Source: Alphaproteobacteria bacterium
GTDB lineage: Bacteria > Pseudomonadota > Alphaproteobacteria > Micavibrionales > Micavibrionaceae
Length of the DNA: 44,485 bases
NCBI GenBank assembly: GCA_020445145.1
Contig: JAGRHC010000055.1
Location: 1-44,485 of the forward strand
Direction of reading: 5' to 3'
The notes under the pieces were generated by a model. The model was not told the DNA's origin. It saw only the letters and a program-made list of their open reading frames with translations, and made no database searches. The translations under genes were made by a program, and so were the position numbers. This document shows, one piece after another, positions 7,624 through 20,881 of the stretch. Each line of letters starts with the position of its first letter. Within the stretch, counting starts at the first letter, position 1.

Positions 7624-8130
7624 ATGCGCATCCTCGGCATAGATCCCGGCCTTCAAAAAACAGGATGGGGCATTATTGAATCCCAAGGCCACAGCCTCAA
7701 ATATATGGCCTGTGGCCTCCTGCGCACCGATGCCGCGGCGCCGCTCGCCGAGAGACTGGCAAGCCTCCACAAACAAATGACCGCCGTCATCGAAGAATGG
7801 AAGCCGGAGACAGCCGCCGTCGAAGAAACTTTCGTAAACAAAAACCCGGCCTCAGCCCTGAAACTCGGGCAGGCGAGGGGTGTTCTTCTGGCCATCCCGG
7901 CCCTGCATGGCCTAAGCGTTTCCGAATACGCAGCCAACAAAATCAAAAAATCCCTCACCGGAACCGGTCACGCCGCGAAAGAACAAATCGGCATGATGAT
8001 CCGTACGCTCCTCCCCACCTGTGGGCAGATAGGCCCGGACGAAGCCGACGCCCTTGCCGCTGCGATCTGTCACGCGCATTATGGAGCCACAGCAAACAAC
8101 ACACTGGCACAATTACAAGGCTACCGATAA
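7624..8130 (+). CDS. ruvC: Crossover junction endodeoxyribonuclease RuvC
   Basis: RuvC is a dimeric, metal-dependent nuclease that cuts Holliday junctions symmetrically after RuvAB branch migration. The 168-residue protein keeps its acidic active site: D7 in ILGIDPGL, E67/E68 in AAVEETFVNKN, and D139 and D142 in GPDEADALAAA. Length and motif spacing match the family. The start ATG at 7624 lies 4 nt after yebC. In many proteobacteria ruvA and ruvB follow directly; here they are 12 kb away beyond the glycan island, so RuvC may have to be expressed from the yebC promoter independently of RuvAB. Confidence 0.96.
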   Translation: MRILGIDPGLQKTGWGIIESQGHSLKYMACGLLRTDAAAPLAERLASLHKQMTAVIEEWKPETAAVEETFVNKNPASALKLGQARGVLLAIPALHGLSVSEYAANKIKKSLTGTGHAAKEQIGMMIRTLLPTCGQIGPDEADALAAAICHAHYGATANNTLAQLQGYR

Positions 8131-8166
8131 CGGCCCCACAGGAATGAAATAAGCAAGGAAAACACA

Positions 8167-9975
8167 TTGACGGGAGACGCAGAAAAATCCGGATGGGCCG
8201 TATTCAAAAAAATATGGGTCAGACTAGAAAAGCAGCAAAAATTACGCCTTGCCGCTTTAAGCATCCTGATTTTCTTCAGCGGCCTCGCCGAAATCATCAG
8301 CATCGGAAGCATAATTCCCTTCATGACGGTCCTGCTATCCCCGGATAAAATGGATTCCCTGTCAATAATCATATGGCTAAAAAGCGGGCTGGGCGAAGGA
8401 AGCGATCAGCAAATCGTCTATATTATGACCGCCGCCTTCTGCACAATCGTGATCCTCGCCGGCATCCTCCGCGTCACCTCGGTCTGGCTGATCACAAAAA
8501 TATCGCAATCCATAGGTCATAACTTCGAGGGTAAAGTATACCGGGCGATCATCGACATGCCCTACACAACTCACATGACCAGGCACGGCGCGGAATTCAT
8601 CAGCATCCTCGAACAAGCAAAACTTATCGGCGCCAGCGTCTCCTACATCGTCGACGGTTTCAACGCCATCTTCATCAACCTCTGCCTCGTCATCACGCTC
8701 CTTTTTGTCAACCCGACAATCGCCGCGCTCTGCTTCTCTGTCCTCGGCGGAGCCTTCATCGCCGCCTCCCTGATCTCTAGAAAAAGATTGACCGCCAACA
8801 GCAAAAAATCCTTCGCCTGTAAAACCGACCGCATGACCACCGTCCACGAAAGCCTGCGCGGCATCAGAGACATCATTCTGGACGGAGGCCATAAATTCTA
8901 CGCCACCAGCTTCAACGGCCTCATCAAAAAACTCTCCGACATCGCCGTCGAAAACGAGATTTGCAAACAAAGCCCGAAGATCATCATCGAGAACATGGCA
9001 ATCGTCTTTGTCGCCCTTCTAGCCTGTATCATCGGAAGTCAGGGCGACATCACGACCCTCTTACCCGTTTTCGCCGCCATCGCTCTGGGCGTCCAGAAAA
9101 TGCTCCCGCTGCTCCAGAAAATCTACATGTCATGGTCCTTCTTCAAGGCAGAATCCTTCTCCCTCGACAGCGCCTTATCCTGCATCGCACGCCCCGATTC
9201 CAACAAAGAAACCGTCCAACCGGCACAAAACATAACATTCCAGAAAACCTACGAGATGAAAAATCTCAACTTCCGCTACGCAGTCGATAAACCGAACGTT
9301 TTGAAAAACATAAATTTCAAAATCACCGCCGGTCAGCGCATCGGGATTGTTGGAAAAACCGGAAGCGGTAAAAGCACATTCCTCGACATCTTCATGGGGC
9401 TACTCCCCACCACAGCCGGCACCATCGAAGTCGACGGGCAAGCTTTAAAACCCGAACAGATCACAGGCTGGCAAAAAAATCTGGCCCATGTCTCTCAGAG
9501 AATTTTTATCGCCAACCGCTCCATCGCAAGCAACATCGCCCTGAACATCAGCGACGCAGAGATTGACCACGCCCGCATTATCGAAGCCGCCCGCATCGCC
9601 CAAGCCGAAGAATTTATAAACGAGTGCCCGGCAGGCTATGATGAAATCGTCGGTGAACAAGGTATAAAACTCTCCGGTGGCCAGTGCCAGCGCCTCGGCA
9701 TTGCCAGGGCAATCTACAAACAAGCCCCAATTCTAATCCTCGACGAAGCCACAAGCGCCCTCGACATCCCGACCGAAAGCAAAGTCATCGAGGGGATAAA
9801 AAACTACAGCGCCGGCCTGACCGCCATCATCGTCAGCCATAGAATGTCTATCCTCAAATTCTGCGACGTCATATACCTGCTCGAAGACGGCAAGCTCGAA
9901 CAAATCTCATACGAAGAACTCCTCAAACGCAATATCGAAGAAGAACCTCCAGAAGCAGAGGCCATCGCATCATGA
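8167..9975 (+). CDS. ABC exporter / glycan flippase (half-transporter with fused ATPase)
   Basis: The 602-residue protein fuses a six-helix exporter-type membrane domain (about residues 25-325) to an ATPase domain (about 355-590). Walker A GKTGSGKS is at 396-403, the ABC signature LSGGQ at 502-506, Walker B ILDE at 524-527 and the switch His at H558; all are intact, so two copies would form a working transporter. The membrane domain opening (GLAEIISIGSIIPFM) resembles PglK/WlaB-type lipid-linked oligosaccharide flippases more than peptide exporters. As first gene of a glycan cluster, the likely cargo is a lipid-linked glycan moved across the inner membrane. The start is a TTG at 8167 with AAGGAA about 7 nt upstream; no ATG fits the conserved N-terminus. 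Confidence 0.88.
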   Translation: MTGDAEKSGWAVFKKIWVRLEKQQKLRLAALSILIFFSGLAEIISIGSIIPFMTVLLSPDKMDSLSIIIWLKSGLGEGSDQQIVYIMTAAFCTIVILAGILRVTSVWLITKISQSIGHNFEGKVYRAIIDMPYTTHMTRHGAEFISILEQAKLIGASVSYIVDGFNAIFINLCLVITLLFVNPTIAALCFSVLGGAFIAASLISRKRLTANSKKSFACKTDRMTTVHESLRGIRDIILDGGHKFYATSFNGLIKKLSDIAVENEICKQSPKIIIENMAIVFVALLACIIGSQGDITTLLPVFAAIALGVQKMLPLLQKIYMSWSFFKAESFSLDSALSCIARPDSNKETVQPAQNITFQKTYEMKNLNFRYAVDKPNVLKNINFKITAGQRIGIVGKTGSGKSTFLDIFMGLLPTTAGTIEVDGQALKPEQITGWQKNLAHVSQRIFIANRSIASNIALNISDAEIDHARIIEAARIAQAEEFINECPAGYDEIVGEQGIKLSGGQCQRLGIARAIYKQAPILILDEATSALDIPTESKVIEGIKNYSAGLTAIIVSHRMSILKFCDVIYLLEDGKLEQISYEELLKRNIEEEPPEAEAIAS

Positions 9976-11051
9976 CCGTCCTCTGCATCACCTCAAACAA
10001 ACTGCAACAGCTCATGAACCGTGAACGCCTGGACCTTTACGAAGCCATGGCAAAGCAGGGCGCCGTCATTCACAACATAGAGGAACAGAACAACTGCGGC
10101 GACAACCTCCCCAGCCTTCTTGAACACTACGCAAGGCAAGGCCAAAACATTCAGGCCATTATCTTTGAAGAAATAAGCTGGCTCATAAAACTGGACTTCA
10201 AACTGGACTTCCAGAACGCGAACGATGTTCACATCCCGATCGCCTCGTTCATGACCGATTTCTGGATGTACAGCGACGAGTTGGAAAAGCACATCAATAA
10301 ACTAAACATATCAAGCCTCATTTTTGCCCACGACGCAGGATACGGATATTTGAAAAACCGCTTCCCGCAAATCCGCCACCTGATTTTCTCACCCTTTTGC
10401 ATCCGTACCGAAAACTTCACCCCCGGCAAAACGGAAAAAACCATCGACGTCCTGAACACAAACGGCACACACCCCGTCACACCGTTCAGAAACAGACTTT
10501 ATGACCTCCTGCCGGCCTTAAACGAACGGGACGTTAATTTCTACCAACTGGAACACCCCGGCAAAAGAAAACAGGATGAAAAAACCGACCGCCTGCAGGA
10601 AAGCTACATCGACCTCCTGCACAAATCCTGCTTCGTTATCGCAGACACCACGATGTACAATCTCTCCGTCCGCAAATATTACGAAATCATGGCCGCCGGC
10701 TCCACTGTTCTAGGCAACGAAACAGGCTATCCGGAACACGCAAATGTCCGCAAAAACTACGTTTGCATCAAAGAAAGCATGTCCGATGAAGAAATCCTGA
10801 GCACAATCTGCGAAGCCGTCAAAGCAAAGGAAACATACAACAAAAAAGCACTGGAATTGAGCGCAGAAGCCCGCCATAAATTTGGAATGGAAACCATTGC
10901 TAAAAACCTGATCGCAAATTTGCTGGCCTCCAACCTGCAACACACATCCGGTATCATCATCCGCCCGCATGAACTGGAACAAATCGAGCGTCAAAAAAAG
11001 AAAAAAGCGGTAGATCAGTTAAAAAAGAAAGTCCTCGCATGGAGAAAATAA
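9972..11051 (+). CDS. Putative glycosyltransferase (CgeB/GT4-like)
   Basis: The 359-residue protein starts inside the stop of the ABC transporter gene (ATGA overlap). The N-terminal half alternates short hydrophobic strands and helices like a Rossmann-type GT-B domain (AIIFEEISWL, IPIASFMTDFWMY). The C-terminal half contains DVLNTNGTHPVTPFRN and the stretch RKYYEIMAAGSTVLGNETG near 233-252, which matches the nucleotide-sugar-binding E-(x)-A-A-G-x-x-(V/P) region seen in CgeB-like and GT4 transferases. A lysine-rich tail (last 30 residues) may touch the membrane. The assignment rests on this C-terminal motif and the surroundings; donor and acceptor are unknown. Confidence 0.7.
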   Translation: MTVLCITSNKLQQLMNRERLDLYEAMAKQGAVIHNIEEQNNCGDNLPSLLEHYARQGQNIQAIIFEEISWLIKLDFKLDFQNANDVHIPIASFMTDFWMYSDELEKHINKLNISSLIFAHDAGYGYLKNRFPQIRHLIFSPFCIRTENFTPGKTEKTIDVLNTNGTHPVTPFRNRLYDLLPALNERDVNFYQLEHPGKRKQDEKTDRLQESYIDLLHKSCFVIADTTMYNLSVRKYYEIMAAGSTVLGNETGYPEHANVRKNYVCIKESMSDEEILSTICEAVKAKETYNKKALELSAEARHKFGMETIAKNLIANLLASNLQHTSGIIIRPHELEQIERQKKKKAVDQLKKKVLAWRK

Positions 11052-11548
11052 TCACCCCCAGCCTTTTCATTCTCGACGTCGATGGCGTCATGACCGACGG
11101 CAGCTTCACCTATTCAGAACAAGGTAAAACCCACAAATCCTTCGGGGCCGATGATGCCGATGGTCTGGCCCTGCTGTCGAACTACATGAAAATTCGCTTT
11201 GTCTCCGCCGATAAGAGAGGATTTCCAATCACCAAAAAACGCATCGCCGAAGATATGGGATACCCCCTGGACTGCGTCAGTTCCGCAGAACGGATCGAGT
11301 GGATTAAATCTCTTGAGGAAGCTCAAAACGTCATCTACATGGGTGACGGATTTTACGATTTCCGCATATTCGACGCCGTAGGCTATGGCATTGCCCCCGA
11401 GAATGCCTTACAACACACTAAGGACAAGGCAAGTTTTGTCACGTCACGTAAAGGCGGAGACCGCGCTGTCGCGCAAGCCTGCTTGCATATTATCGACACA
11501 TTCTTCGGGGGCGCAAACGCAGCCCTCTATGAACCAAAAAACAAATGA
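11039..11548 (+). CDS. KdsC-like HAD phosphatase
   Basis: A 169-residue C0-type HAD phosphatase without a cap domain, the form used by KDO-8-phosphate and KDN-9-phosphate phosphatases. Motif I is DVDGVMTDG with nucleophile D13 and acid D15. Motif II is the serine in FVSADKRG (S56). Motif IV is GDGFYD with D103 and D107. A lysine for motif III is available in ITKKRIAED. The gene overlaps the preceding glycosyltransferase gene by 13 nt and precedes the GatZ-like gene by 13 nt. In known pathways such enzymes remove the phosphate left after an acid sugar or long-chain sugar has been built by carbon-carbon bond formation. A similar step after the neighbouring aldolase-family protein is likely but not shown. 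Confidence 0.82.
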   Translation: MEKIITPSLFILDVDGVMTDGSFTYSEQGKTHKSFGADDADGLALLSNYMKIRFVSADKRGFPITKKRIAEDMGYPLDCVSSAERIEWIKSLEEAQNVIYMGDGFYDFRIFDAVGYGIAPENALQHTKDKASFVTSRKGGDRAVAQACLHIIDTFFGGANAALYEPKNK

Positions 11549-11561
11549 GTAGAAAAGCACA

Positions 11562-12710
11562 ATGAGCAAAAATATCCGCGCTGTCATAAAAGATAAAAAA
11601 GCCACTATGCTCTGCGTCGGTCCCATGAGCCACCTTTGCATAGAAGTCACAGCCAACCTGTCCAAAAAGCACGACGTTCCAATCCAGCTCATCGCCAGCC
11701 GTCGTCAGATCGATTCCGCGGAATTCGGCGGCGGCTATGTTGGAAAGATGACAACCGAAGAGTTCGTCAAACGCGTTCGCTCCTACAACGCTCCTAAACT
11801 CCTGATCGCCCGCGACCACGGCGGCCCATGGCAAAGCGTCCTGGAATCAGACAAAAATATGGATGTCGCCCAAAGCATGGAATCCGCCATGCGATCCTTC
11901 GAAACCGACATAGAGACAGGATTCGACTTCATCCACATCGACCCGTCTATCCCGGTCGGAGGCGAAAATCTAACCACTGAAACTATCATCGAGCGACTAC
12001 TGGAACTCTATGAGCGCTGCGCAGACATCGCGCGCCAAAAGGGTGCCTTGGACAAAATTGCCTTTGAACTCGGCACAGAAGAGCAAACAGGCTACGGCTC
12101 CGACCTCTCTCAAATGGAAGAATTCATCGTTCGCGCCAAAGAGTTCTGTGCAAAGAAATCAATCCCGCAACCGACCTTTATAGTCGCCCAGACCGGCACC
12201 AAAGTCATGGAAACCCAGAACATCGGCGTCTTCGGCAACGCAGGTTCAGACCTAACCCCGGACTTTCTCTCTCACCTGCGCAAAACCGTGGCCCTGTGCG
12301 AAAAACACGACATGCTTCTCAAGGAGCACAACGCCGACTATCTCGAAGACGCAGCCTTGGCCCTACGCCCGGTTCTCGGAATCCACGCCTCCAACGTCGC
12401 CCCGGAATTTGGCGTCACAGAAACCCGCGCCCTCATTTATGCCCTTGCCGTCTCCGGCATGAAAACTGAACTGGATAAATTCCTCGAAATTTCCCTATCC
12501 TCAGGAAAATGGAAAAAATGGATGCTTCCCGGCACACAAAAAACCGATATCGACCGCGCCGTCATCAGCGGTCACTACGTCTTCAGCCATCCAGAAGTCC
12601 TGGACTTGCGCGCAAAACTCGAAAAAGATGCGCCGTGGGTGAGGGACTATACCAAAGTACAGGTCGAACAATCGATCCTGCGCTACATGCACCTCTTCAG
12701 ACTTGTTTAA
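11562..12710 (+). CDS. GatZ/KbaZ-like tagatose-bisphosphate aldolase family protein
   Basis: The 382-residue protein fits the TIM-barrel family of the so-called non-catalytic subunit of class II tagatose-1,6-bisphosphate aldolase. Family marks are IARDHGGPWQ near residue 85 (the DHxGP element), HIDPSIPVGGENLT near 125-140, and FELGTEEQTG near 167. In Enterobacteria GatZ/KbaZ supports the catalytic GatY/KbaY, but no such gene is nearby here. It is slightly shorter than GatZ (about 420). The gene follows the HAD phosphatase and precedes a cupin, so a role in making a sugar phosphate for activation fits better than galactitol catabolism. It may be an aldolase, isomerase or epimerase in its own right; that is inference. 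Confidence 0.78.
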   Translation: MSKNIRAVIKDKKATMLCVGPMSHLCIEVTANLSKKHDVPIQLIASRRQIDSAEFGGGYVGKMTTEEFVKRVRSYNAPKLLIARDHGGPWQSVLESDKNMDVAQSMESAMRSFETDIETGFDFIHIDPSIPVGGENLTTETIIERLLELYERCADIARQKGALDKIAFELGTEEQTGYGSDLSQMEEFIVRAKEFCAKKSIPQPTFIVAQTGTKVMETQNIGVFGNAGSDLTPDFLSHLRKTVALCEKHDMLLKEHNADYLEDAALALRPVLGIHASNVAPEFGVTETRALIYALAVSGMKTELDKFLEISLSSGKWKKWMLPGTQKTDIDRAVISGHYVFSHPEVLDLRAKLEKDAPWVRDYTKVQVEQSILRYMHLFRLV

Positions 12711-12727
12711 AAAGGAAGGAACGCCAG

Positions 12728-13075
12728 ATGATCATCGAAAAACCATGGGGCAGAGAAGAACTCCTCGAGCATAACGAAAACTATATGGTCAAACGCTTGA
12801 CCATGTGGAAAGACCAATGCTGCAGCATCCAGTACCACGAGCAAAAAACCGAAACTGTTTACATGCTCTCCGGACAACTGCGCGTCTATATCGGCGACAG
12901 CCTTGAAACCATGGTCCCGAAAATCCTCACCCCCGGCGACAGCCTGACCTTAAAACCCGGAATTGTACACCGCATGGAAGGCGTCGAAGACTCGATCTAT
13001 CTTGAAGCCTCCACCCCACAACTCGAAGACGTCGTACGCCTCGAGGACAAATATGGCCGCGCCAAGGCGTCGTGA
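12728..13075 (+). CDS. Cupin, mannose-6-phosphate-isomerase type
   Basis: A 115-residue single-cupin protein. The start ATG at 12728 has a strong AAGGAAGGA ribosome site; the same frame is open further upstream inside the previous gene, which I discount. The first cupin motif is QYHEQKTETVYMLSG (35-49) with ligands H37 and E42, the first of the usual pair of histidines being Q35. The second motif, PGDSLTLKPGIVH, ends with H81. This form resembles the isolated phosphomannose isomerase type II cupin domain found in capsule and O-antigen clusters, where some members isomerise sugar phosphates and others have no proven reaction. It belongs to the HAD-aldolase-nucleotidyltransferase unit. Confidence 0.85.
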   Translation: MIIEKPWGREELLEHNENYMVKRLTMWKDQCCSIQYHEQKTETVYMLSGQLRVYIGDSLETMVPKILTPGDSLTLKPGIVHRMEGVEDSIYLEASTPQLEDVVRLEDKYGRAKAS

Positions 13076-13084
13076 ACCGGCAAG

Positions 13085-13777
13085 ATGACCTACAAAATCG
13101 TTATCCCCACAGCAGGAACCGGCTCCCGGCTAGGCACCCTGACAAAGGACACAAACAAGGCGCTCCTGCCTATCGCAGGCAAAGCGGTCATCTCACATAT
13201 CCTGAGCCGCTTTCCTGCCGATAAACCTATCGTCATCCCGCTAGGCTACAAAGGCGAAAACGTCAAAGAATTTCTCCTGAAAAACCACCCGGAGCGTCAC
13301 TTTAAATTTCGCACCGTCGATCCCTACGAAGGCGATGGCTCAGGCCTAGGCTATACAATGCTTTGCTGCGAAGACCTCTTGCAAACCCCGTTTATATTCT
13401 GCTCAAACGACACAATCGTCGGAGGCAATGTCCCATCCCCCGATCACAACTGGATGGGCTACGCACATGTCACAGAAACCGACCAATACCGCTGCTTGAA
13501 AATTTCCAAAGACGGGGCCGTAGAAAAAATCTGCGAAAAGGGAGCAACAGAAAAAAACATAGAGCCCTACATCGGTCTCGCAGGCATACACGACTACGAA
13601 CTATTCTGGTCCGCCATGAACAAAAACAAGGATATCGCCATCGCAACCGGCGAAAGCCACGGACTAAGAACCTTAATCGAAGAGAAAACCGTAACAGCCT
13701 ACTTGTTCGACTGGCACGACACAGGCAATATAGCGGCACTTCGGGAAACAGAGGCAGAATTACAAAATGAGTTATAA
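13085..13777 (+). CDS. Sugar/alditol-phosphate nucleotidyltransferase
   Basis: A 230-residue GT-A fold nucleotidyltransferase. The signature near the N-terminus is complete: G11-T-G13-S-R15 with the conserved lysine K25 in NKALLPIAG. The metal aspartate is D109 in FCSNDTIV, and the second metal site is D212 in DTGN. The short length without a C-terminal beta-helix suggests a monophosphate-specific cytidylyl- or guanylyltransferase similar to LicC or MobA-like enzymes. The substrate cannot be read from the sequence. It starts 9 nt after the cupin gene, and the next gene, a paralogue, overlaps its end by 11 nt. Confidence 0.87.
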   Translation: MTYKIVIPTAGTGSRLGTLTKDTNKALLPIAGKAVISHILSRFPADKPIVIPLGYKGENVKEFLLKNHPERHFKFRTVDPYEGDGSGLGYTMLCCEDLLQTPFIFCSNDTIVGGNVPSPDHNWMGYAHVTETDQYRCLKISKDGAVEKICEKGATEKNIEPYIGLAGIHDYELFWSAMNKNKDIAIATGESHGLRTLIEEKTVTAYLFDWHDTGNIAALRETEAELQNEL

Positions 13778-15332
13778 AGTCGTCATACCCACCGCAGGCG
13801 CAGGTAACATGGCCGGCCCCATGAGTGGCCAGATCAATCCGGCCCTGGCCGGAATCGGCAACAAGCCTGTCATTTCGTATATCATCGAACAATTCCCCAA
13901 AGACGCATCGTTCGTCATCATCCTGGGTTATAAGGAAGATCAGGTCAGAGATTATCTGACCATGGCGCACGAAGACACAAAATTCGAATTCCGCACCGTA
14001 GACCGCTTCGAAGGGGAGGGGGCCGGTCTAGGCCGAACACTCCTGTGCTGCGAAGACCTGTTGCAAGAACCCTTCATTTTCTGCTCGGACGACACCATCG
14101 TAGAAAGCAAAATCCCGCTCCCCGACCACAACTGGATGGGCTACATGGACGGCGGAGAAACAGACCAGTACCGCTGCATTCAACTGGACAGCAGCGACAA
14201 CGTCTCTGAAATCACAGCCAAAGGCGCCAAAGGCGAAAACTTCCTTCCCTATATCGGCCTCGCAGGCATAAAAGATTACAAAACCTTCTGGGAATCCATG
14301 AAAACAGGAGCCCCCGAAATCGGAGAAAGCATCGGCCTGCGCGCGCTTATTCCCTCCGGTGTAAAGGGACACTATTTTAACTGGTCAGATACCGGAAATG
14401 AGAAATCCTTCGAAGACGCAAAGAAAACCCTGGCCTTTGACGCCCCCGTTATTCTTGAAAAGCCGGATGAAGCGATCTGGTTCGTAAACGGCAAAGTCAT
14501 CAAGTTCTCGCTTGACGAAAACTTCATCAAAAACCGCGCGGAGAGAGCAAAAAACCTCCAACCCTACGTCCCGGAAATTCTGGCAAGTTCAAAGAACATG
14601 TACATGTACGCGATGATACAGGGCCGCGAAATGTCCCGTGTCGCAAACCCCGCCATGTTTTATAATTTCCTCGAATACATGAAAGGCTTCTGGACCGTCC
14701 ATAAACTAGACGCAGCACAGATGCAAAACTTTAAAAAAGGCGTACACAAATTCTACCGCGATAAAACAATCGACCGCGTAAACCAGTACTTCACAAGATT
14801 CGAGGAAAACGACGAAGCCGACGAAATCAACGGCCGCACCTGCCCGAAACTCATGGATATATTGAAAAAAGTTGACTGGGACTGGCTGGCAGAAGGTGTA
14901 CCCGTACGCTTTCACGGCGACCTGCACTTTGAGAACATGCTTATCACAGAAGACTCAAAACGCCCATTCATCCTCCTCGACTGGCGCCAGGACTTCGCCG
15001 GAGACTTGAGCACGGGCGACATCTACTACGATCTCGCGAAACTCGCCCACGGCCTCATCATCTCCCACCAACTCATCCATCAGGAACTTTTCTCGATTGA
15101 TAAGGAAGGGGCCGTCATAACCTACGACTTCCTACGCAAACATTCCCAGATCGAATGTCTCGACATCCTCGAGGAATGGACACTGGCTCAAGGCTACAGT
15201 CATGAAAAAACAATGATCATCACCGCGCTGATCTTCCTCAACATCGCAGCCCTCCACACATACCCATATTCAAGACTGCTCTTCTATCTCGGCAAGAATA
15301 TGCTCTGGCAATACTTGCAGGCAAAGGAATAG
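13767..15332 (+). CDS. Degenerate nucleotidyltransferase fused to an APH/LicA-type kinase
   Basis: The 521-residue protein has two parts. Residues 1-225 are a clear paralogue of the preceding protein (shared KVVIPTAG, YIGLAGI, LLCCEDLLQ, DTGN). However the signature is broken: R15 has become M15 and K25 has become P25, although D109 and D208 remain. Residues about 235-520 are a phosphotransferase domain of the aminoglycoside/choline kinase fold: an N-lobe lysine (K243 or K246), catalytic loop HGDLHFEN (383-390, base D385), and metal aspartate D405 in LLDW. The kinase looks active; the nucleotidyltransferase domain probably is not and may bind substrate or regulate its paralogue. LicC-LicA type fusions in phosphocholine pathways have the same order. 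Confidence 0.85.
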   Translation: MSYKVVIPTAGAGNMAGPMSGQINPALAGIGNKPVISYIIEQFPKDASFVIILGYKEDQVRDYLTMAHEDTKFEFRTVDRFEGEGAGLGRTLLCCEDLLQEPFIFCSDDTIVESKIPLPDHNWMGYMDGGETDQYRCIQLDSSDNVSEITAKGAKGENFLPYIGLAGIKDYKTFWESMKTGAPEIGESIGLRALIPSGVKGHYFNWSDTGNEKSFEDAKKTLAFDAPVILEKPDEAIWFVNGKVIKFSLDENFIKNRAERAKNLQPYVPEILASSKNMYMYAMIQGREMSRVANPAMFYNFLEYMKGFWTVHKLDAAQMQNFKKGVHKFYRDKTIDRVNQYFTRFEENDEADEINGRTCPKLMDILKKVDWDWLAEGVPVRFHGDLHFENMLITEDSKRPFILLDWRQDFAGDLSTGDIYYDLAKLAHGLIISHQLIHQELFSIDKEGAVITYDFLRKHSQIECLDILEEWTLAQGYSHEKTMIITALIFLNIAALHTYPYSRLLFYLGKNMLWQYLQAKE

Positions 15333-15335
15333 ACC

Positions 15336-16484
15336 ATGAAAATATCACAAGCGTCCACAGATCAGACAACCGAGTGTCGCGTCTGCAAAAGCACAAAAAA
15401 CCATAAAGGATACGACGTAGAGTCAGCCCCGCAAATCCTCGGCTGCGCACAGGAAGGCCGCGCAGATCAATTCATCTCCTTCGGCATCTGGCGCTGCGAG
15501 AATTGTGGGTTCATCTCCACCGACGCAGACCCTGAAGACATGGCCTACGAACTCCTCCATTCGGAAGCGTTGGGCCCCACATGGACCCGTCACAAGGAAA
15601 CACTGGCAAAATTCTGCGCCGATAGCCTCCCAAAGGGCAAGGAAGCCCAAGCTCTTGAAGTCGGCCCGTCCTGCAATCCGCTGCTCTACACAATCGCCCA
15701 TGAAGGCGGCATCAAAGCAACATTCATTGACATGATGCAAGAAGCCCCGTTCACCGTTAAAGACGGTGACCAGTATATAGAGGGAGCCTTCCCTCTGGAG
15801 TTAGAGACTAAATACGACATAATCGTCGCCTCTCACGTTCTCGAGCACGTCCTGGACATGCAAACCTTCCTGAGTGGCGCAAAAAACCTGCTGAGCGAAA
15901 ACGGCAGTATTATCATCAGCGTCCCCAACTTCGAAATATGGATCGGACGAAAATACTGGAACGCCATCACGCCTGAACACATCAACTACCCGTTCAAAAG
16001 TCACTTCGAGACACTGGCCAACCAGATCGGCATGGAAGTAACGTTCACGTACTTCGAAGAACATTCGCTCATCTCGAAATTCACCAAAAACCGGGCGCAA
16101 CTTGCCTCCGAATCAAAATCGGAAGACTTTCTTACACCCTGGGTCAGCGCCATCACCACATCCATACAAAAAGCAGAAAACGACCTCAAAGAATCCCTAT
16201 CCGAAAAAGCTGCCGACTGTGTAGCCATTGCTGGTGCCAGCCATATCGCCCAATACCCGTGCCTGATGTCAGAAAAGCTGGCACAAAACGTCACCTCCGT
16301 CATCGATAACTCAAAAATCAAACACGGAAAACGCCTCTACGGCACAAACTTGACAGTCTCATCCTTTGAAAGCCTCGGAGAATATCAGTCTCCGATCGCC
16401 ATCCTGTTCAACTCGCCCTACCGCGAAGAGATGAAAAAACAAATAAACACCATCAATCCCAACGCCCGCATCATAGAAGTCTAG
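15336..16484 (+). CDS. Sugar C-methyltransferase-like SAM methyltransferase
   Basis: The 382-residue protein has the three-part layout of TylC3-type sugar C-methyltransferases. A small zinc-binding region comes first, with C14/C17 and C54/C57. A SAM domain follows, with motif I ALEVGPSCNPLL near 106-117 and HVLEHV at 167-172. The C-terminal domain (about 270-382) is of the kind that binds the sugar nucleotide, with IAGASHIAQYPCL and a Rossmann-like end. Such enzymes add a methyl to a ring carbon of a keto-sugar nucleotide; here the natural substrate could be the product of the preceding activation genes. Start ATG at 15336, 3 nt after the kinase-fusion gene. Confidence 0.83.
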   Translation: MKISQASTDQTTECRVCKSTKNHKGYDVESAPQILGCAQEGRADQFISFGIWRCENCGFISTDADPEDMAYELLHSEALGPTWTRHKETLAKFCADSLPKGKEAQALEVGPSCNPLLYTIAHEGGIKATFIDMMQEAPFTVKDGDQYIEGAFPLELETKYDIIVASHVLEHVLDMQTFLSGAKNLLSENGSIIISVPNFEIWIGRKYWNAITPEHINYPFKSHFETLANQIGMEVTFTYFEEHSLISKFTKNRAQLASESKSEDFLTPWVSAITTSIQKAENDLKESLSEKAADCVAIAGASHIAQYPCLMSEKLAQNVTSVIDNSKIKHGKRLYGTNLTVSSFESLGEYQSPIAILFNSPYREEMKKQINTINPNARIIEV

Positions 16485-16487
16485 GAC

Positions 16488-17302
16488 ATGTTCCAAAAAG
16501 CAATAATCATCAACACATTGCCCCGCTCAGGATCGAACATCCTTTGGAACATCGTAGGCTCGAGCCCGGACGTTGTTATGACGGAGCGCGAGTTTCACGC
16601 CATCACGGGCTTGGATAAAACATCGCAATCAAAATCCTTCTGCGCCTGAACGCCTTGTTCCCATCCCTTCCTTTATCAAAATATCTCATTGCCAAAACAG
16701 TGGAATCCTCAGCACAGACCGCGCAAAGTGCCGACACCCAAAAACGCAAGGAGCGAAGCCTGCAAACCGCCACAGACCCGTACGTGTGCTTCAAGGTCAT
16801 GGGTGGAGACAATAGGTTCAACCAACTCATCCGCAACGCCTTCAGGGAAACGCATTTCATTTATCTGGTGCGCGAGCCCGCCGGAATTTGCGAAAGCTAC
16901 CAGCGCCGTGGCCTTCCGGAAAACAAAGCCGCGAATATGTACGCGGCAACCTTGCAAAGAATGCAGGAAGACTTCACCCAAAACCCTGGCGGCCAATGGA
17001 TTAGCTTCGAAGACATGGCAAAAGACATCGGCAAAGTATCAGAAGACCTCTACAAAAACCTGAATCTTACCCCGCCCGAAGACTCTCTTTACCTCTACAA
17101 ACAAAAAGCCTACGGCGCGGGAAACGAAAAAGCATCCTCAGCGCATTCAACGAAAGTACTCCTCTCGCTCGACGAATACAAAAAAACCGTAAATTACGAA
17201 CCGCCAGAAAACTACATCTCAAAAATTCCGGCAGATTACTGGGAAAAATACAAAAGTATCGTCGATCAAAAATGCAAAGGAATTAAAGCCTACAAAGCCT
17301 GA
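16488..17302 (+). pseudogene. Sulfotransferase, split by a -1 frameshift
   Basis: An ATG at 16488 opens a frame encoding MFQKAIIINTLPRSGSNILW, the 5'-phosphosulfate loop of PAPS-dependent sulfotransferases, but it stops at 16647-16649. A second frame, open from 16619 to 17302, continues the family with FIYLVREPAGICESYQRRG, the 3'-phosphate-binding region, and a normal C-terminus. Adding one A to the AAAA run at 16617-16620 joins the two into a protein of about 271 residues, a usual sulfotransferase length. Either the gene is freshly broken, the assembly lost a homopolymer base, or a rare slippage joins the parts; I see no canonical slippery heptamer. An intact version would sulfate a glycan or another alcohol. 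The end overlaps the convergent glycosyltransferase gene by 13 nt. Confidence 0.75.
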
Positions 17303-18231
17303 CCAAAAATCTTACCCATCTTCCGCCTCAACTGCGGAACCAGTAAAATCCCCGGCGCACAAAGACAGGCCATCAAACGAAACAAACGACTAAGCGCCAT
17401 ACGCTCCCTGAAAAAATAAAACCGCGCATACGCCTGCAAAACAGAAGCATAATAAAGGTTCGCCCGCCCGAAAAAAGAACGGTGTTTATCCCGAAGGCGC
17501 AGTGTATAAACCAGAGGAATCGTCCCCGACTTATCTGAAGTATCCGTTTTATACTGCGTCACCAGAGTCTCATCGACCGCAAGAAAATGAGCCCCTGCAG
17601 ACGCCGCCCGAATAGCCATATCCCACTCCGCGCAGCGCCTGAAACTTTCATCAAACCCGCCAATCCGCTGCAAAAAGCGCGTTTCCATCATGAGAGAACA
17701 ACTCCCAAACACACCCCAGACAAAAGGCTCCGGCATAACATCGAGCAAGATAAAACGAATAACATCCGCGCCTGACGGCTCCGGCGCGCATCGCCCGATA
17801 GCAAACGCCGTATGCGTCCCTCTATCCTGAACAACCGTCCTGTTCGCATAACACAAAACAGGCACATCCCCCGAATATCGGGAACGAAAAGAAGAAATAC
17901 GCTCCATTTGCTTGCCCAACCGCTCCGGAACACTGGTATCGTCATCATCGAAAAACGCAATAAAATCTCCGCGCGCTTCTCCTGAAATCGTATTAAGCGC
18001 CGCCGGATACCCCTTATTTTCAATATGACGAATAAGCCGAACGCGCTCATCTTTAGCCGCAATCGCCTCAACGATAGAGACAGATCTGTCCGTAGAACAA
18101 TCATCCACAACCAGAATTTCAAAGGACGGATAGACCTGCGCCTGAGCACTCTCAATCGCGCGCCCAATTGTGTCCTCGCAATTAAAACAGGTAATCCCAA
18201 TCGATATAAAAGGAACCGTCACAACGTGCAC
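17290..18231 (-). CDS. Family 2 glycosyltransferase
   Basis: A 313-residue inverting GT-A transferase. It has the family opening (ISIGITCFNCEDTIGRAIES, 9-28), the nucleotide-binding VVDDCSTD (41-48), and an unusually long DDDD metal motif at 95-98 in FFDDDDTS. The acceptor-side acid is probably in CAEWDMAIRAA. The C-terminus is basic and hydrophobic, which suggests contact with the inner membrane. Translation probably starts at a GTG (18231, or 18222) directly after the acetyltransferase stop codon, with no spacer, so the two are coupled. The sugar donor and acceptor are unknown. Its last 13 nt overlap the end of the sulfotransferase gene on the other strand. Confidence 0.9.
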   Translation of the reverse strand: MHVVTVPFISIGITCFNCEDTIGRAIESAQAQVYPSFEILVVDDCSTDRSVSIVEAIAAKDERVRLIRHIENKGYPAALNTISGEARGDFIAFFDDDDTSVPERLGKQMERISSFRSRYSGDVPVLCYANRTVVQDRGTHTAFAIGRCAPEPSGADVIRFILLDVMPEPFVWGVFGSCSLMMETRFLQRIGGFDESFRRCAEWDMAIRAASAGAHFLAVDETLVTQYKTDTSDKSGTIPLVYTLRLRDKHRSFFGRANLYYASVLQAYARFYFFRERMALSRLFRLMACLCAPGILLVPQLRRKMGKIFGQAL

Positions 18232-18705
18232 CTACAAAGAAGAACAAAGGGCAGGGACCCCCTTAGCCAAGGACCCAGGCGGCACGTCCTTCGTCACAAC
18301 CGCCCCAGCCGCCACAATACTGCCTTTCCCGATCCGAACCCCGGCCAGAATACGAGCTCCTGTAGCAATCCACACATCATCCTCAATAACAATCGCTTCG
18401 CACAAATGCTTACGAGGATTCCCCGTCTTTTCCAGATACCCCGTCTCAATCACCACGTAGGAGGAAATACGAACATGATCCCCGATCGTGACCGGACTGC
18501 GTGCATCAATCAAAACCCCTTCATTCAAAGTACAATGTGCCCCGACTTTGATCTTCTCGGGATAATAAATCTTAACCCGCCCAAACACACGCAGGCCCGG
18601 ACCAACATCATCAAACAAATTAGAAAAATAAAAAGCCCGAAGACTGTTTTGCAAACGCCTGATTTTATGTAAGGCCGAACGGAGTAGCTCTTTTTGAAAA
18701 GACAT
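18232..18705 (-). CDS. Left-handed beta-helix O-acetyltransferase
   Basis: A 157-residue hexapeptide-repeat acyltransferase. After a basic N-terminal helix (about 1-35) the coil repeats are visible in [37 protein letters not shown] and [18 protein letters not shown], and the end carries the usual [21 protein letters not shown] element. Members of this class (maltose/serine/NodL-type) transfer acetyl from acetyl-CoA to sugar hydroxyls. A loop near residues 88-102 contains the expected catalytic His region (RKHLCEA, H100). It is the first gene of the two-gene minus-strand unit and most likely decorates the glycan built by the island. Confidence 0.88.
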
Positions 18706-18719
18706 AGATTTGCCTATCT

Positions 18720-18747
18720 TTGAGGGATGGTATTTCGTATATATAGT
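18720..18747 (+). promoter_or_regulatory. Candidate promoter of the tandem methyltransferase unit
   Basis: TTGAGG (18720-18725) and TATAGT (18742-18747) are 16 bp apart. The start of transcription would be near 18754, leaving a leader of about 34 nt to the GTG at 18788. The -10 overlaps that of the divergent unit. Confidence 0.4.
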
Positions 18748-18770
18748 AATACATCAGATTGCGTAATCAA
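18741..18770 (-). promoter_or_regulatory. Candidate promoter of the acetyltransferase-glycosyltransferase unit
   Basis: On the minus strand TTGATT (18770-18765) and CTATAT (18746-18741) are 18 bp apart; CTATAT is the exact alphaproteobacterial -10. It shares bases with the -10 of the opposing promoter, so the two cannot be occupied together. Confidence 0.45.
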
Positions 18771-18787
18771 CTCACATAACCTGACGG

Positions 18788-19501
18788 GTGTTCCTTGTGT
18801 CTTTCGCCGGTAATCTTTACCACAGACTTAAATTGATCTCAAAAAAATTCAGCCGCAAAGGGCTTTACGAATGGCTGGACCAACAAATCGCAGCCATGCC
18901 GCCCGGAGCGAATCTGGTCTTGAACATTGGTGCAGGCGGAGCAGTCTTCCAGAAAATCCAGAAAATAGACGCTGAAAAAATCCTGCAAGTCGATATAGAT
19001 CCAGACAGAAAACCGGATATCGTCGCCGACGCCTGTGACATGAATATGTTTGCAGACAGGAGTGTCGACGCCATTTTCCTAATAGAGGTGCTGGAGCACA
19101 TTAACCAGCCATGGCTCGCCGTAAAGGAACTCCACCGTATCTTGAAACCGGGCGGAAAAATCTTCGTCACAACGCCTTTCATATTTCCCATCCATGACCG
19201 GCCCTATGATTTTTACCGCTACACGGAATATGGCCTTGCCTATCTCTTCAATGACTTCGAGAACGTCAATATAGACCGCCGCAACAGCTACACCCAAGCC
19301 ATCTACGTTCTCTTCGCCCGCGCCATGTTCGGAGAAGGAAAAAAATCAAAACTCGCTGGCGCCGTCATATTCTCCTTAAGTCTTCTCTTACTCCCGCTCT
19401 TCCTCCTCGCAGACATCTTCTACAAAAACGATGCCGCAACCACTGGATATGTCCTCTCAGCTATAAAACCACCACACTCAACGTCAGGAGATAAACCATG
19501 A
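18788..19501 (+). CDS. SAM methyltransferase with a C-terminal membrane helix
   Basis: A 237-residue class I methyltransferase (Methyltransf_11-like). Motif I is VLNIGAGGAVF (about 44-54), the ribose-binding acid is in QVDIDPD, and the motif IV region is FLIEVLEHIN, followed by LKPGGKIFVTTPF. Near the end a hydrophobic run (AVIFSLSLLLLPLFLLADI, about 195-214) could insert in or lie on the inner membrane, which fits modification of a lipid-linked glycan. The start is a GTG at 18788 with only a weak ribosome site. Its stop overlaps the ATG of the next gene (ATGA). The DFYRYTEYGLAYLF segment is shared with the next protein, so the two are paralogues. Confidence 0.83.
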   Translation: MFLVSFAGNLYHRLKLISKKFSRKGLYEWLDQQIAAMPPGANLVLNIGAGGAVFQKIQKIDAEKILQVDIDPDRKPDIVADACDMNMFADRSVDAIFLIEVLEHINQPWLAVKELHRILKPGGKIFVTTPFIFPIHDRPYDFYRYTEYGLAYLFNDFENVNIDRRNSYTQAIYVLFARAMFGEGKKSKLAGAVIFSLSLLLLPLFLLADIFYKNDAATTGYVLSAIKPPHSTSGDKP

Positions 19502-20175
19502 CGAACGCCGCACAAATCGCACAACGCAACGAAGACTTAAAAGACCTTATCAAGGCTGTAAAAGTCGACGTTTCCTATTGCTACGAAACAGACAAACTTC
19601 TCGATGAAAAAGTCGACTTTATGGCCGAAAATTGCCCGCGCGTTTTAGACTTCGGAAAATCCTCCCGCCACCGCTACAAAAAATTCAGCCCCGAACAAGC
19701 GCAAACAGCAGACATCAACCAATATAATGACTACCCGGATTACATATGCGACATATGCGACTCCTCAACCTTTCCAGAAGAAAAATATGACGGAATCATC
19801 TGCAACGCCGTCCTCGAACATGTCTACGATCCCTTCACAGCTGTAAAAAATCTCCACGAAGCCCTAAAACCGGAAGGCTACTTACTGGCATACGTTCCCT
19901 ACCTGTATCGCTATCACGCCCCCAAAGACCTCACATTCCAGGACTATTACCGCTACTCAAGAGATGCCTTAGCCTACATGTTCCGCGACTTCAGCTCACT
20001 CACGCTCTATTCCGTTCGTGGCCGAACCTCCACAGCCTTCGTTAGCGCGTTCCCATTCTGGAAACCGTATGTTGAGAAAAAAATCCCGAAAGCCAACATC
20101 TTAGTCGACAAAGTCCTGGGAGGCGCCTATGACCCGCTCCAGACAAGCGGCTATCATATATGGGCACAAAAATAG
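19498..20175 (+). CDS. SAM methyltransferase, paralogue with an altered motif I
   Basis: A 225-residue protein of the same fold as its upstream neighbour (shared DYYRYSRDALAYMFRDF and LKPEGYLLAYVPY). The glycine-rich SAM loop reads VLDFGKSSRHRY instead of GxGxG, so the cofactor loop is unusual, but the acid after strand 2 (TADINQY) and the NAVLEHVYDPF motif remain. It may be an active member of a divergent subfamily or a partner of the first enzyme. It is the last island gene before ruvA, which starts 70 nt later. Confidence 0.78.
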   Translation: MTNAAQIAQRNEDLKDLIKAVKVDVSYCYETDKLLDEKVDFMAENCPRVLDFGKSSRHRYKKFSPEQAQTADINQYNDYPDYICDICDSSTFPEEKYDGIICNAVLEHVYDPFTAVKNLHEALKPEGYLLAYVPYLYRYHAPKDLTFQDYYRYSRDALAYMFRDFSSLTLYSVRGRTSTAFVSAFPFWKPYVEKKIPKANILVDKVLGGAYDPLQTSGYHIWAQK

Positions 20176-20184
20176 AAAGGGTTT

Positions 20185-20213
20185 TTGATAACATAGTAGT
20201 CTGCTAATATGTG
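20185..20213 (+). promoter_or_regulatory. Candidate ruvAB-tol promoter
   Basis: TTGATA (20185-20190, 5 of 6 consensus) is followed after 17 bp by TATGTG (20208-20213); a TAATAT at 20205-20210 is an alternative -10. Either would start transcription about 25 nt before ruvA. A promoter here would let ruvAB and the tol genes escape the upstream island. Confidence 0.3.
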
Positions 20214-20245
20214 TCCATAGCCCACGACTCAAAAGCGTATAAAAA

Positions 20246-20881
20246 ATGATCGGTAAACTCTCAGGCATAATAGACTCATTCGGAACAGACCACGTCATTT
20301 TGGACGTCGGCGGCGTAGGCTACATTGCACACGCCAGCGCCAGAACGCTTGGCCGCATCGGAGCAGCCGGAAACAAGGCATCCCTCCTGATCCACACACA
20401 AGTCCGCGAAGACGCCATCACTCTCTACGGCTTTGTCGATTTAGCCGAACAGCAATGGTTCAAACTCTTGACCACCGTTCAAGGCGTCGGCGCAAAAGCC
20501 GCGCTCGCAATTCTAAGCGCCTGTGGGCCGGAGCAACTTGGCATCATTATCGCATCACAGGACCGAACCGCACTGACGCGCGCCGACGGAATAGGTCCGA
20601 AATTGGCGACCCGTATCCTATCGGAATTAAAAGATAAAACGGCTAAAGCAGAAATTTTTGCCCCAGCACAAACAGCGGCGCAAACCGGATCAGGAACCGC
20701 TCCAAAAAGGGTTCAAGACCAGACGCAAAACAGCAGCATCACCCAAGACGCTGTCTCGGCCCTGACCAACCTCGGATACGCCCGCGCCGAGGCCTATGGC
20801 GCCGTTATGCGCATGCAGGAACAGGCAAACGACAACCTCGAAGAACTCATCCGCCTTTCACTCAAGGACCTTAGCGCATGA
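20246..20881 (+). CDS. ruvA: Holliday junction branch migration protein RuvA
   Basis: RuvA tetramers hold the four-way junction in a square-planar form and load the RuvB motor. The 211-residue protein opens [13 protein letters not shown] with the N-terminal OB fold (1-65), continues with two helix-hairpin-helix elements ([16 protein letters not shown] and [14 protein letters not shown], about 72-130), and after a linker rich in Gln/Thr/Ala ends in the RuvB-binding three-helix domain (about 165-211, [19 protein letters not shown]). All family parts are present. It overlaps ruvB by 4 nt. Confidence 0.96.

Follow-up and report, generated by a model that had tools for sequence, protein, structure and literature searches.

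A recurrent five-gene cassette in a Micavibrionaceae genome, predicted to belong to a sugar-nucleotide pathway

The DNA analyzed here (the window) is a stretch of 44,485 nucleotides, contig JAGRHC010000055.1 of assembly GCA_020445145.1, from an alphaproteobacterium of the family Micavibrionaceae. Five open reading frames at positions 11039 to 15332, all on the forward strand and spaced between an 11-bp overlap and a 17-bp gap, encode a KdsC-like phosphatase of the haloacid dehalogenase (HAD) class, a GatZ-like protein, a cupin of the phosphomannose isomerase (PMI) type, a nucleotidyltransferase, and a second nucleotidyltransferase domain fused to an APH-type kinase (Table 1). All five are genuine, closely spaced genes that are conserved together. 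An earlier reading of the sequence alone had described five coupled genes of these families, and the open frames and the Pfam and NCBIfam assignments agree with it. It had also proposed that they encode an undescribed route of sugar activation, a proposal supported by our finding that all five proteins stay below the curated cut-off of every NCBIfam pathway model.

Active sites and predicted folds of the cassette proteins

The KdsC-like protein scores below the KdsC threshold (Table 1). Its sequence relatives in the PDB are mostly KdsC-type proteins, and the HAD catalytic aspartates D13, D15, D103, and D107 are kept in the window and in 125 of 125 KdsC-like family members. The cupin falls under the cut-off of TIGR01479, the equivalog model for the bifunctional mannose-1-phosphate guanylyltransferase/PMI (GMP/PMI) enzymes (33.2 versus 372.95 bits). 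Its residues H37, E42, and H81 are present in all 201 relatives and Q35 in 199 of them; these four we take to be the PMI metal ligands.

The GatZ-like protein shares with GatZ and KbaZ the Pfam family, the fold, and four catalytic or metal-binding positions, and it lies far under the equivalog cut-off (TIGR02810, 34.8 versus 568.8 bits). The catalytic Asp and the His-His-Glu metal site of GatZ (D87, H88, E171, and H257) correspond to D85, H86, E173, and H256 in the window. Among 159 aligned relatives, H256 is found in all, the Asp and H86 are each lost once through a gap, and the E173 position is occupied by Asp in five and by Phe in one. The three-histidine site of class II fructose-bisphosphate aldolase is absent, one ligand being Glu, as in GatZ. 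A comparison of the predicted structure ranks GatZ first and tagatose 4-epimerases next, ahead of most aldolases. Genetic evidence identifies Escherichia coli GatZ and KbaZ as fructose-6-phosphate 4-epimerases, and tagatose formation is restored by E. coli gatZ or kbaZ together with a phosphatase (PMC11907403). Unlike E. coli gatZ, which lies among galactitol phosphotransferase system (PTS) genes, the subfamily to which the window's protein belongs sits with an activation set.

The separate nucleotidyltransferase has the GxGxR...K motif, D109, and D212. The nucleotidyltransferase domain of the fusion is 51% identical to it and carries M and P in place of its R15 and K25. Among 201 fused domains compared, two come from copies of the window; 196 of the other 199 keep both residues, and the remaining three (L181, L199, and L251) cannot be aligned over the motif. 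The pseudo-nucleotidyltransferase of the sequence-only reading is therefore confirmed in the window and does not hold as a general trait, since the fusion elsewhere normally looks like an intact bifunctional protein. Only the window, among the loci examined, has a separate nucleotidyltransferase beside a degenerate fused copy, and it seems to have divided the labor between an active stand-alone enzyme and a kinase whose partner domain looks inactive. Because the fused copy lacks two conserved residues, nucleotide transfer in the window is predicted to be carried out by the separate gene product. The kinase domain itself keeps H158-G-D160, N165, and D180 (domain numbering).

Recurrence in bacterial genomes and viral contigs

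A collection of species genomes was scanned with an alignment (A1) of the window's GatZ-like protein and 19 database proteins; the rows of this and the three other alignments (A2 to A4) were picked by hand. The scan returned 159 stretches containing 139 relatives, the best 80 of which were analyzed and divided by identity and context into 64 cassette-type loci and 16 others. Loci cut by contig ends are included in all counts. Within 7 kb of the GatZ-like gene, the cassette-type loci carry the cupin in 56 cases, the fused nucleotidyltransferase-kinase in 52, and the KdsC-like gene in 49, and 43 of them also carry a gene for a 274-amino-acid protein that has no Pfam match and resembles a GT-A glycosyltransferase by eye. 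The most common order is kdsC-gatZ-glycosyltransferase-cupin-fusion, with or without a methyltransferase gene; the window and its nearest relatives, L001 to L007, have no glycosyltransferase gene between gatZ and the cupin.

The other 16 loci form a separate catabolic clade (SH-aLRT 100) in a quick tree of 62 of the 64 cassette loci, all 16 of these control loci, the window, and 49 viral rows, about one-third of the viral total. Some adjoin transketolase genes or genes that look PTS-like by eye. They serve as a negative control: cupin, fusion, and KdsC-like genes occur within 7 kb in none of the 16, some of which are short contigs. A looser model had produced one KdsC-type match on the opposite strand beside control locus L070, and this match was absent with the later model. 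The co-occurrence counts in the 64 and 16 loci indicate that the gene grouping is not due to chance, and the co-occurrence elsewhere on which the sequence-only reading depended was thus found.

Loci with both a GatZ-like protein and the fusion span 15 phyla, as named in the record titles of bins that may contain foreign contigs: Pseudomonadota, Campylobacterota, Thermodesulfobacteriota, Spirochaetota, Roizmaniibacteriota, Fidelibacterota, Bdellovibrionota, Myxococcota, Planctomycetota, Bacteroidota, Cyanobacteriota, Verrucomicrobiota, Chlorobiota, Omnitrophota, and Actinomycetota. Database names for members of the module are mostly lacking or read "tagatose-6-phosphate kinase" or "tagatose aldolase non-catalytic subunit." When the search was anchored on the fusion instead (E, 1e-60), 7 genomes among 398 from the phylum were positive, the window's own included. 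In four of the other six, GatZ-like, KdsC-like, cupin, and glycosyltransferase genes adjoin the fusion (three of these are the genomes of L013, L014, and L016); the fifth has cupin and dehydrogenase-like genes and no GatZ-like gene in the 10 kb examined, and the sixth has only a cupin gene, with 2.7 kb remaining to the contig end. A 190-genome sample of the class contained a full-length fusion in two genomes besides the window's own, both with dehydrogenase-like and KdsC-like genes, one also with a cupin gene, and neither with a GatZ-like gene before the contig end. Sixteen plasmid records were matched, and the three examined, from Klebsiella, Sinorhizobium, and Streptantibioticus, do not carry the kinase fusion; the Klebsiella match lies beside fructose PTS and transaldolase genes, and the Streptantibioticus plasmid is unannotated. 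On the Sinorhizobium plasmid, from a nodule isolate, genes for a GatZ-like protein, a cupin, a DegT aminotransferase, and a HAD protein lie in a row (L163:9010-12486), perhaps an aminosugar variant.

The cassette is also found in viral contigs. Scans anchored on the GatZ-like protein and on the fusion were analyzed for the best 80 of 164 and the best 80 of 197 matches, respectively, and a further scan yielded 24 contigs, several of which had been seen before; the viral contigs include near-identical ones, such as L184 and L185, and no long identical stretch is common to the GatZ-anchored and fusion-anchored sets. The 80 GatZ-anchored loci include KdsC-like genes in 66, the fusion in 60, the cupin in 59, and a shikimate-dehydrogenase-like gene in 37; the corresponding figures for the 80 fusion-anchored loci are cupin 69, GatZ-like 67, dehydrogenase-like 51, and KdsC-like 8. 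Cupin, nucleotidyltransferase, and kinase form a single protein in 51 of the 80 fusion-anchored loci, as in L204, where the three parts lie in one frame. A terminase over the cut-off was present in 14 of 38 contigs picked by hand, mostly long ones, from the 160 viral loci (15 matched at an E value of 0.001), and 7 of these 14 exceed 200 kb; at least these 14 contigs are therefore from tailed phages. A tblastn search for named phages returned Marine virus AG-345-E15 and four records of Listeria phages, five in all. In the former, a member of the Caudoviricetes from a single-cell sample, cupin, fusion, and GatZ-like genes lie in a row (L164:7105-9930). PHROGs has no family matching the GatZ-like proteins, viral or from the window, or the viral KdsC-like protein tested; the cupin matches a family named "cysteine dioxygenase," and the fusion matches only families of unknown function. 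The viral rows group in two clades of the quick tree that are distinct from the genome rows, and a recent transfer between phages and this bacterium is accordingly not established.

Exchange of parts and the predicted pathway

In 12 viral contigs, a ribulose-5-phosphate/allulose-6-phosphate 3-epimerase and an SIS-type, HxlB-like isomerase are encoded beside the fusion, and no GatZ-like or cupin gene lies within the examined stretch. Seven of these are fusion-anchored loci (L183 to L189), and five came from the further scan (L288, L289, L291, L297, and L305). Pfam confirmed PF00834 and SIS in L183, L185, and L189; the HxlB model gave 116.7 bits for L183 and 107.6 for L189, under its cut-off of 160. 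The KdsC-like gene is present in 9 of the 12; of the others, two are truncated by a contig end and L305 encodes a small HAD protein in its place. Seven other loci from the further scan have the cupin and GatZ-like genes and neither a 3-epimerase nor an SIS isomerase gene, and these two genes are likewise absent from the other GatZ-like loci of the genome scan and both viral scans, except for the catabolic locus L077, which has an epimerase gene. A possible third front end lies on a 186-kb viral contig, where a split transketolase pair stands upstream of the fusion and KdsC-like genes (L215:5270-7007).

The phosphatase may be exchanged as well. A small HAD protein is encoded near 67 of 91 fusion loci without a KdsC-like gene and near only 2 of 124 loci with one. 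Its family (seed L219) resembles the EcbF/BcbF capsule phosphatases below the cut-off (35.9 versus 162 bits) and matches PDB entry 9iqw, "capsule biosynthesis protein"; the small HADs of L296 to L305 were chosen by eye, with Pfam and NCBIfam checks for L298, L300, L303, and L305. These replacements fit a predicted order of epimerase, isomerase, phosphatase, kinase, and nucleotidyltransferase, and slot-by-slot replacement by parts of the same predicted reaction type is the strongest argument we have for the reactions themselves.

With a probability of roughly 0.6, we propose that the five genes form a pathway from a ketose phosphate to a nucleotide-activated rare sugar. The sequences show which genes are present and that they recur together, the active-site residues that are conserved, the predicted folds, the exchange of parts between loci, and the insertion between ruvC and ruvA; every reaction of the scheme, the order of the reactions, the substrate, the sugar, and the nucleotide are inferred. 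The GatZ-like protein would invert C4 of the ketose phosphate by a metal-dependent retro-aldol/aldol reaction, the best guess being conversion of fructose 6-phosphate to tagatose 6-phosphate, and the cupin would isomerize the resulting ketose phosphate to an aldose phosphate, which would then be talose or galactose 6-phosphate. The KdsC-like phosphatase would remove the phosphate, the kinase domain would phosphorylate the anomeric carbon, and the nucleotidyltransferase would form a nucleoside diphosphate (NDP)-sugar as substrate for a glycosyltransferase, possibly modified by a methyltransferase in about half of the genome loci. The phage sets of 3-epimerase, HxlB-like isomerase, and fusion are predicted to be a second sugar pathway. 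More tentatively, and at somewhat worse than even odds, bacteria and large tailed phages may share a plug-in route in which the fused nucleotidyltransferase-kinase and a phosphatase activate whichever aldose is supplied by a swappable epimerase-isomerase pair, with the GatZ-like protein and cupin perhaps leading to NDP-talose and the 3-epimerase and HxlB-like isomerase perhaps to NDP-allose or NDP-altrose. Overall, the sequence-only interpretation is partly supported, and the observation on which it was built is confirmed.

Several known systems share parts of this scheme. AmgK is a kinase of the APH type that acts on the anomeric carbon. MupP, AmgK, and MurU recycle N-acetylmuramic acid (MurNAc) to UDP-MurNAc, and expressing them together reconstituted this route in E. 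coli (PMC5371407, PMC5371409). On that description the cassette resembles MupP-AmgK-MurU in having a HAD phosphatase, an APH-type kinase, and a nucleotidyltransferase; unlike the cassette, MupP-AmgK-MurU starts from salvaged MurNAc 6-phosphate and has no epimerase or isomerase, and the MurU models lie far under their cut-offs in the cassette (24.8 versus 370 and 24.7 versus 250 bits). The tie between a PMI-type cupin and a nucleotidyltransferase recalls the bifunctional GMP/PMI enzymes AlgA and ManC. In the AlgA/ManC route a phosphomutase joins the two steps, whereas the cassette would use a phosphatase and a kinase, and its cupin is N-terminal where fused. The logic of GDP-D-glycero-D-manno-heptose synthesis (isomerase, kinase, phosphatase, and nucleotidyltransferase) is also shared, and this pathway was compared by the HddC model only (18.3 versus 300 bits). 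The likeness to LicA-LicC choline activation remarked on in the sequence-only reading holds at the level of fold and superfamily for the kinase and the nucleotidyltransferase; to our knowledge, LicA-LicC has no epimerase, isomerase, or phosphatase partner. Sugar activation encoded by phages has been predicted or shown in the DNA-sugar pathways of RB69 and Thanatos, and the portions of those papers available to us name no aldolase-type, cupin, or kinase-fused set (PMC6024577, PMC12838424). We found no description of this gene set in the literature searched, most subscription journals being outside its coverage, and no precedent in the available portions of a rare-glycan review or of two Campylobacter HS:1 papers, which concern fructose branching and name one transferase gene. 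The cassette would be a sugar-nucleotide pathway like MupP-AmgK-MurU, with the upstream epimerase-isomerase pair and its exchange as the new element.

A number of observations weigh against the proposed pathway. The residues C20, E44, and K279 that distinguish GatZ are G20, I44, and N278 in the window, and nearly all aligned relatives have the same G, I, and N there, so that the substrate may differ from fructose 6-phosphate. The kinase model (pLDDT 94.1) is tied or nearly tied between APH(4), choline kinase, LicA, and glucosamine, fructosamine, and methylthioribose kinases, and is as close to choline and antibiotic kinases as to sugar kinases; Foldseek alone gave TM-scores below 0.5, and the absence of AmgK from the 50 matches listed in this comparison excludes nothing. 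In addition, the kinase sequence profile found only a weak PDB match, over 44 residues, and on both counts anomeric phosphorylation is a guess. Our searches turned up no characterized enzyme of the set or close relative. The shikimate-dehydrogenase-like gene, present in only 6 of the 64 genome loci and frequent in the viral ones, has no place in the scheme; its product keeps K67 and D103 in 97 of 97 proteins, and the L018 protein passes the AroE cut-off (210.7 versus 200.2 bits), which the shorter L204 protein does not. Three bacterial fusion loci, two of them at contig ends, have this dehydrogenase-like gene and no GatZ-like gene in the stretch. The small HAD proteins are concentrated in the fusion-anchored viral set (64 of 67, with three elsewhere) and occur in none of the 13 fusion loci without a KdsC-like gene in the genome and GatZ-anchored viral sets, so that this replacement may represent a single event. 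Finally, gene distances fall into two blocks, one of GatZ-like, KdsC-like, and glycosyltransferase genes (r, 0.70 to 0.82) and one of cupin, nucleotidyltransferase, and kinase (r, 0.82 to 0.89), with r of 0.19 to 0.51 between them; parts have therefore been exchanged, and a single product across all loci is doubtful.

Alternatively, the kinase might act before the phosphatase, by way of a sugar 1,6-bisphosphate, as it does in the heptose route of GmhA, HddA, GmhB, and HddC, where the kinase acts first. In line with this, the PDB sequence that the window's fusion matches best, though weakly (E value, 0.0049), is a 6-deoxy-heptose pathway protein (5xhw). We consider this order unlikely, given the low score of the separate nucleotidyltransferase against the HddC model and the MurU pathway, in which the MupP phosphatase supplies free MurNAc to AmgK and MurU (PMC5371407, PMC5371409). 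Less likely again is that the GatZ-like protein is a true aldolase joining dihydroxyacetone phosphate or another donor to an aldehyde and building a longer sugar. The sequence-only reading had suggested that an aldolase-like enzyme could take the place of the phosphoenolpyruvate (PEP)-condensing synthase of long-chain sugar routes, having correctly seen that the block contains no such synthase (a KdsA-like protein is encoded on another contig, and the genome has no NeuB match). This is not the best interpretation in light of the GatZ genetics, the ranking of the structural model with its GatZ-type metal site of two His and one Glu, and the replacements, which are an epimerase and an isomerase and not a synthase.

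It is improbable that the product is an activated polyol phosphate or aminoalcohol in the style of LicC/LicA or CDP-glycerol, with a cupin that is not an isomerase. In the profile search with the fusion, phosphocholine cytidylyltransferase ranked second, which counts against a sugar product; glucose-1-phosphate thymidylyltransferase ranked first, which counts in favor of one, and a 6-deoxy-heptose pathway protein third. Moreover, genes for a sugar-phosphate epimerase and isomerase are common partners, and a phosphatase would be superfluous for choline. We also set aside the notion, to which we give hardly any weight, that the KdsC-like protein is the genome's 3-deoxy-D-manno-octulosonate (KDO) 8-phosphate phosphatase and its grouping with the other genes incidental. 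In its favor, the genome has a KdsA-like synthase and no KdsC over the cut-off (the sole other match, of 27.9 bits, is in a long frame). Against it, a KdsC over the cut-off is absent from all 31 genomes of the family, only one relative having a comparable match (89 bits), so that the family seems to manage without one, and the KdsC-like gene lies within 7 kb of the GatZ-like gene at 49 of the 64 genome loci and 66 of the 80 viral ones.

If the proposed pathway is correct, it would give a function to a largely unnamed module in genomes of 15 phyla and many phage contigs. It would also provide a rule for reading sugar loci, in which the epimerase-isomerase pair beside the kinase fusion tells which aldose is activated, and it would mean that some phages carry a near-complete rare-sugar route, for decoration of DNA, virion, or host surface.

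Genomic setting and associated genes

The cassette lies in a 12.1-kb glycan-type island (8130 to 20246) between ruvC and ruvA. Among 24 relatives that have both genes, the distance between the aligned ends of the two is 48 to 220 bp in 22 and about 0.9 kb in the other 2; the cassette is therefore part of an insertion in this lineage. Of 95 genomes from the family and order, only the window's own has a GatZ-like protein. With its exporter and methyltransferases, the island looks like a locus for surface-glycan synthesis. Exporters similar to the one in the window occur within 7 kb in 10 of the 64 cassette-type genome loci, and relatives of the methyltransferase in 32. The sequence-only reading had called the latter a C-methyltransferase; of four relatives tested, those in L158 and L032 pass the cut-off for PF08484, the C-terminal domain of C-methyltransferases, and those in L055 and L017 fall below it, as does the window's own protein (14.4 versus 23.5 bits).

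Table 1. Positions of cassette genes, their neighbors, and shikimate-dehydrogenase-like examples
Feature	Coordinates	Strand	Remarks
ABC exporter (MsbA/PglK-like), likely the flippase of this glycan locus	8167..9975	+	MsbA 258.8 bits, PglK 252.9 bits; both below NCBIfam cut-off
Gene overlapping the cassette start, glycosyltransferase-like by eye only	9972..11051	+	No Pfam/NCBIfam match
KdsC-like HAD, predicted sugar-phosphate phosphatase	11039..11548	+	169 aa; TIGR01670 67 bits (cut-off 106.95)
GatZ-like protein, predicted ketose-phosphate 4-epimerase	11562..12710	+	382 aa; PF08013 (GatZ_KbaZ) 40 bits (cut-off 26.7)
PMI-type cupin, predicted ketose/aldose-phosphate isomerase	12728..13075	+	115 aa; PF01050 35.3 bits (cut-off 23.6)
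Separate nucleotidyltransferase, active-site motif intact	13085..13777	+	230 aa; PF00483 30.4 bits (cut-off 21.2)
Fused protein, nucleotidyltransferase domain plus APH-type kinase	13767..15332	+	521 aa
Degenerate nucleotidyltransferase domain within the fusion	13767..14441	+	M/P at R15/K25 positions
APH/choline-kinase-superfamily kinase domain, predicted sugar kinase	14442..15332	+	PF01636 32.9 bits (cut-off 23.2)
S-adenosylmethionine methyltransferase, associated gene	15336..16484	+	PF13489 43.3 bits
Shikimate-dehydrogenase-like, L018	14356-15165		Conserved catalytic Lys and Asp
Shikimate-dehydrogenase-like, L153	7259-7996		Conserved catalytic Lys and Asp
Shikimate-dehydrogenase-like, L204	9508-10131		Conserved catalytic Lys and Asp

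Downstream of the methyltransferase gene, at 16489-17302 on the forward strand, a likely sulfotransferase gene (identified by eye) is split into two frames, a short one from 16489 to about 16650 and the remainder from 16655, the open part having no Pfam or NCBIfam match. Beside the cassette of L013, a small SnoaL-like protein is encoded at 7935-8282, and proteins similar to it by eye are encoded at L303:6269-6658 and L305:8565-8924.

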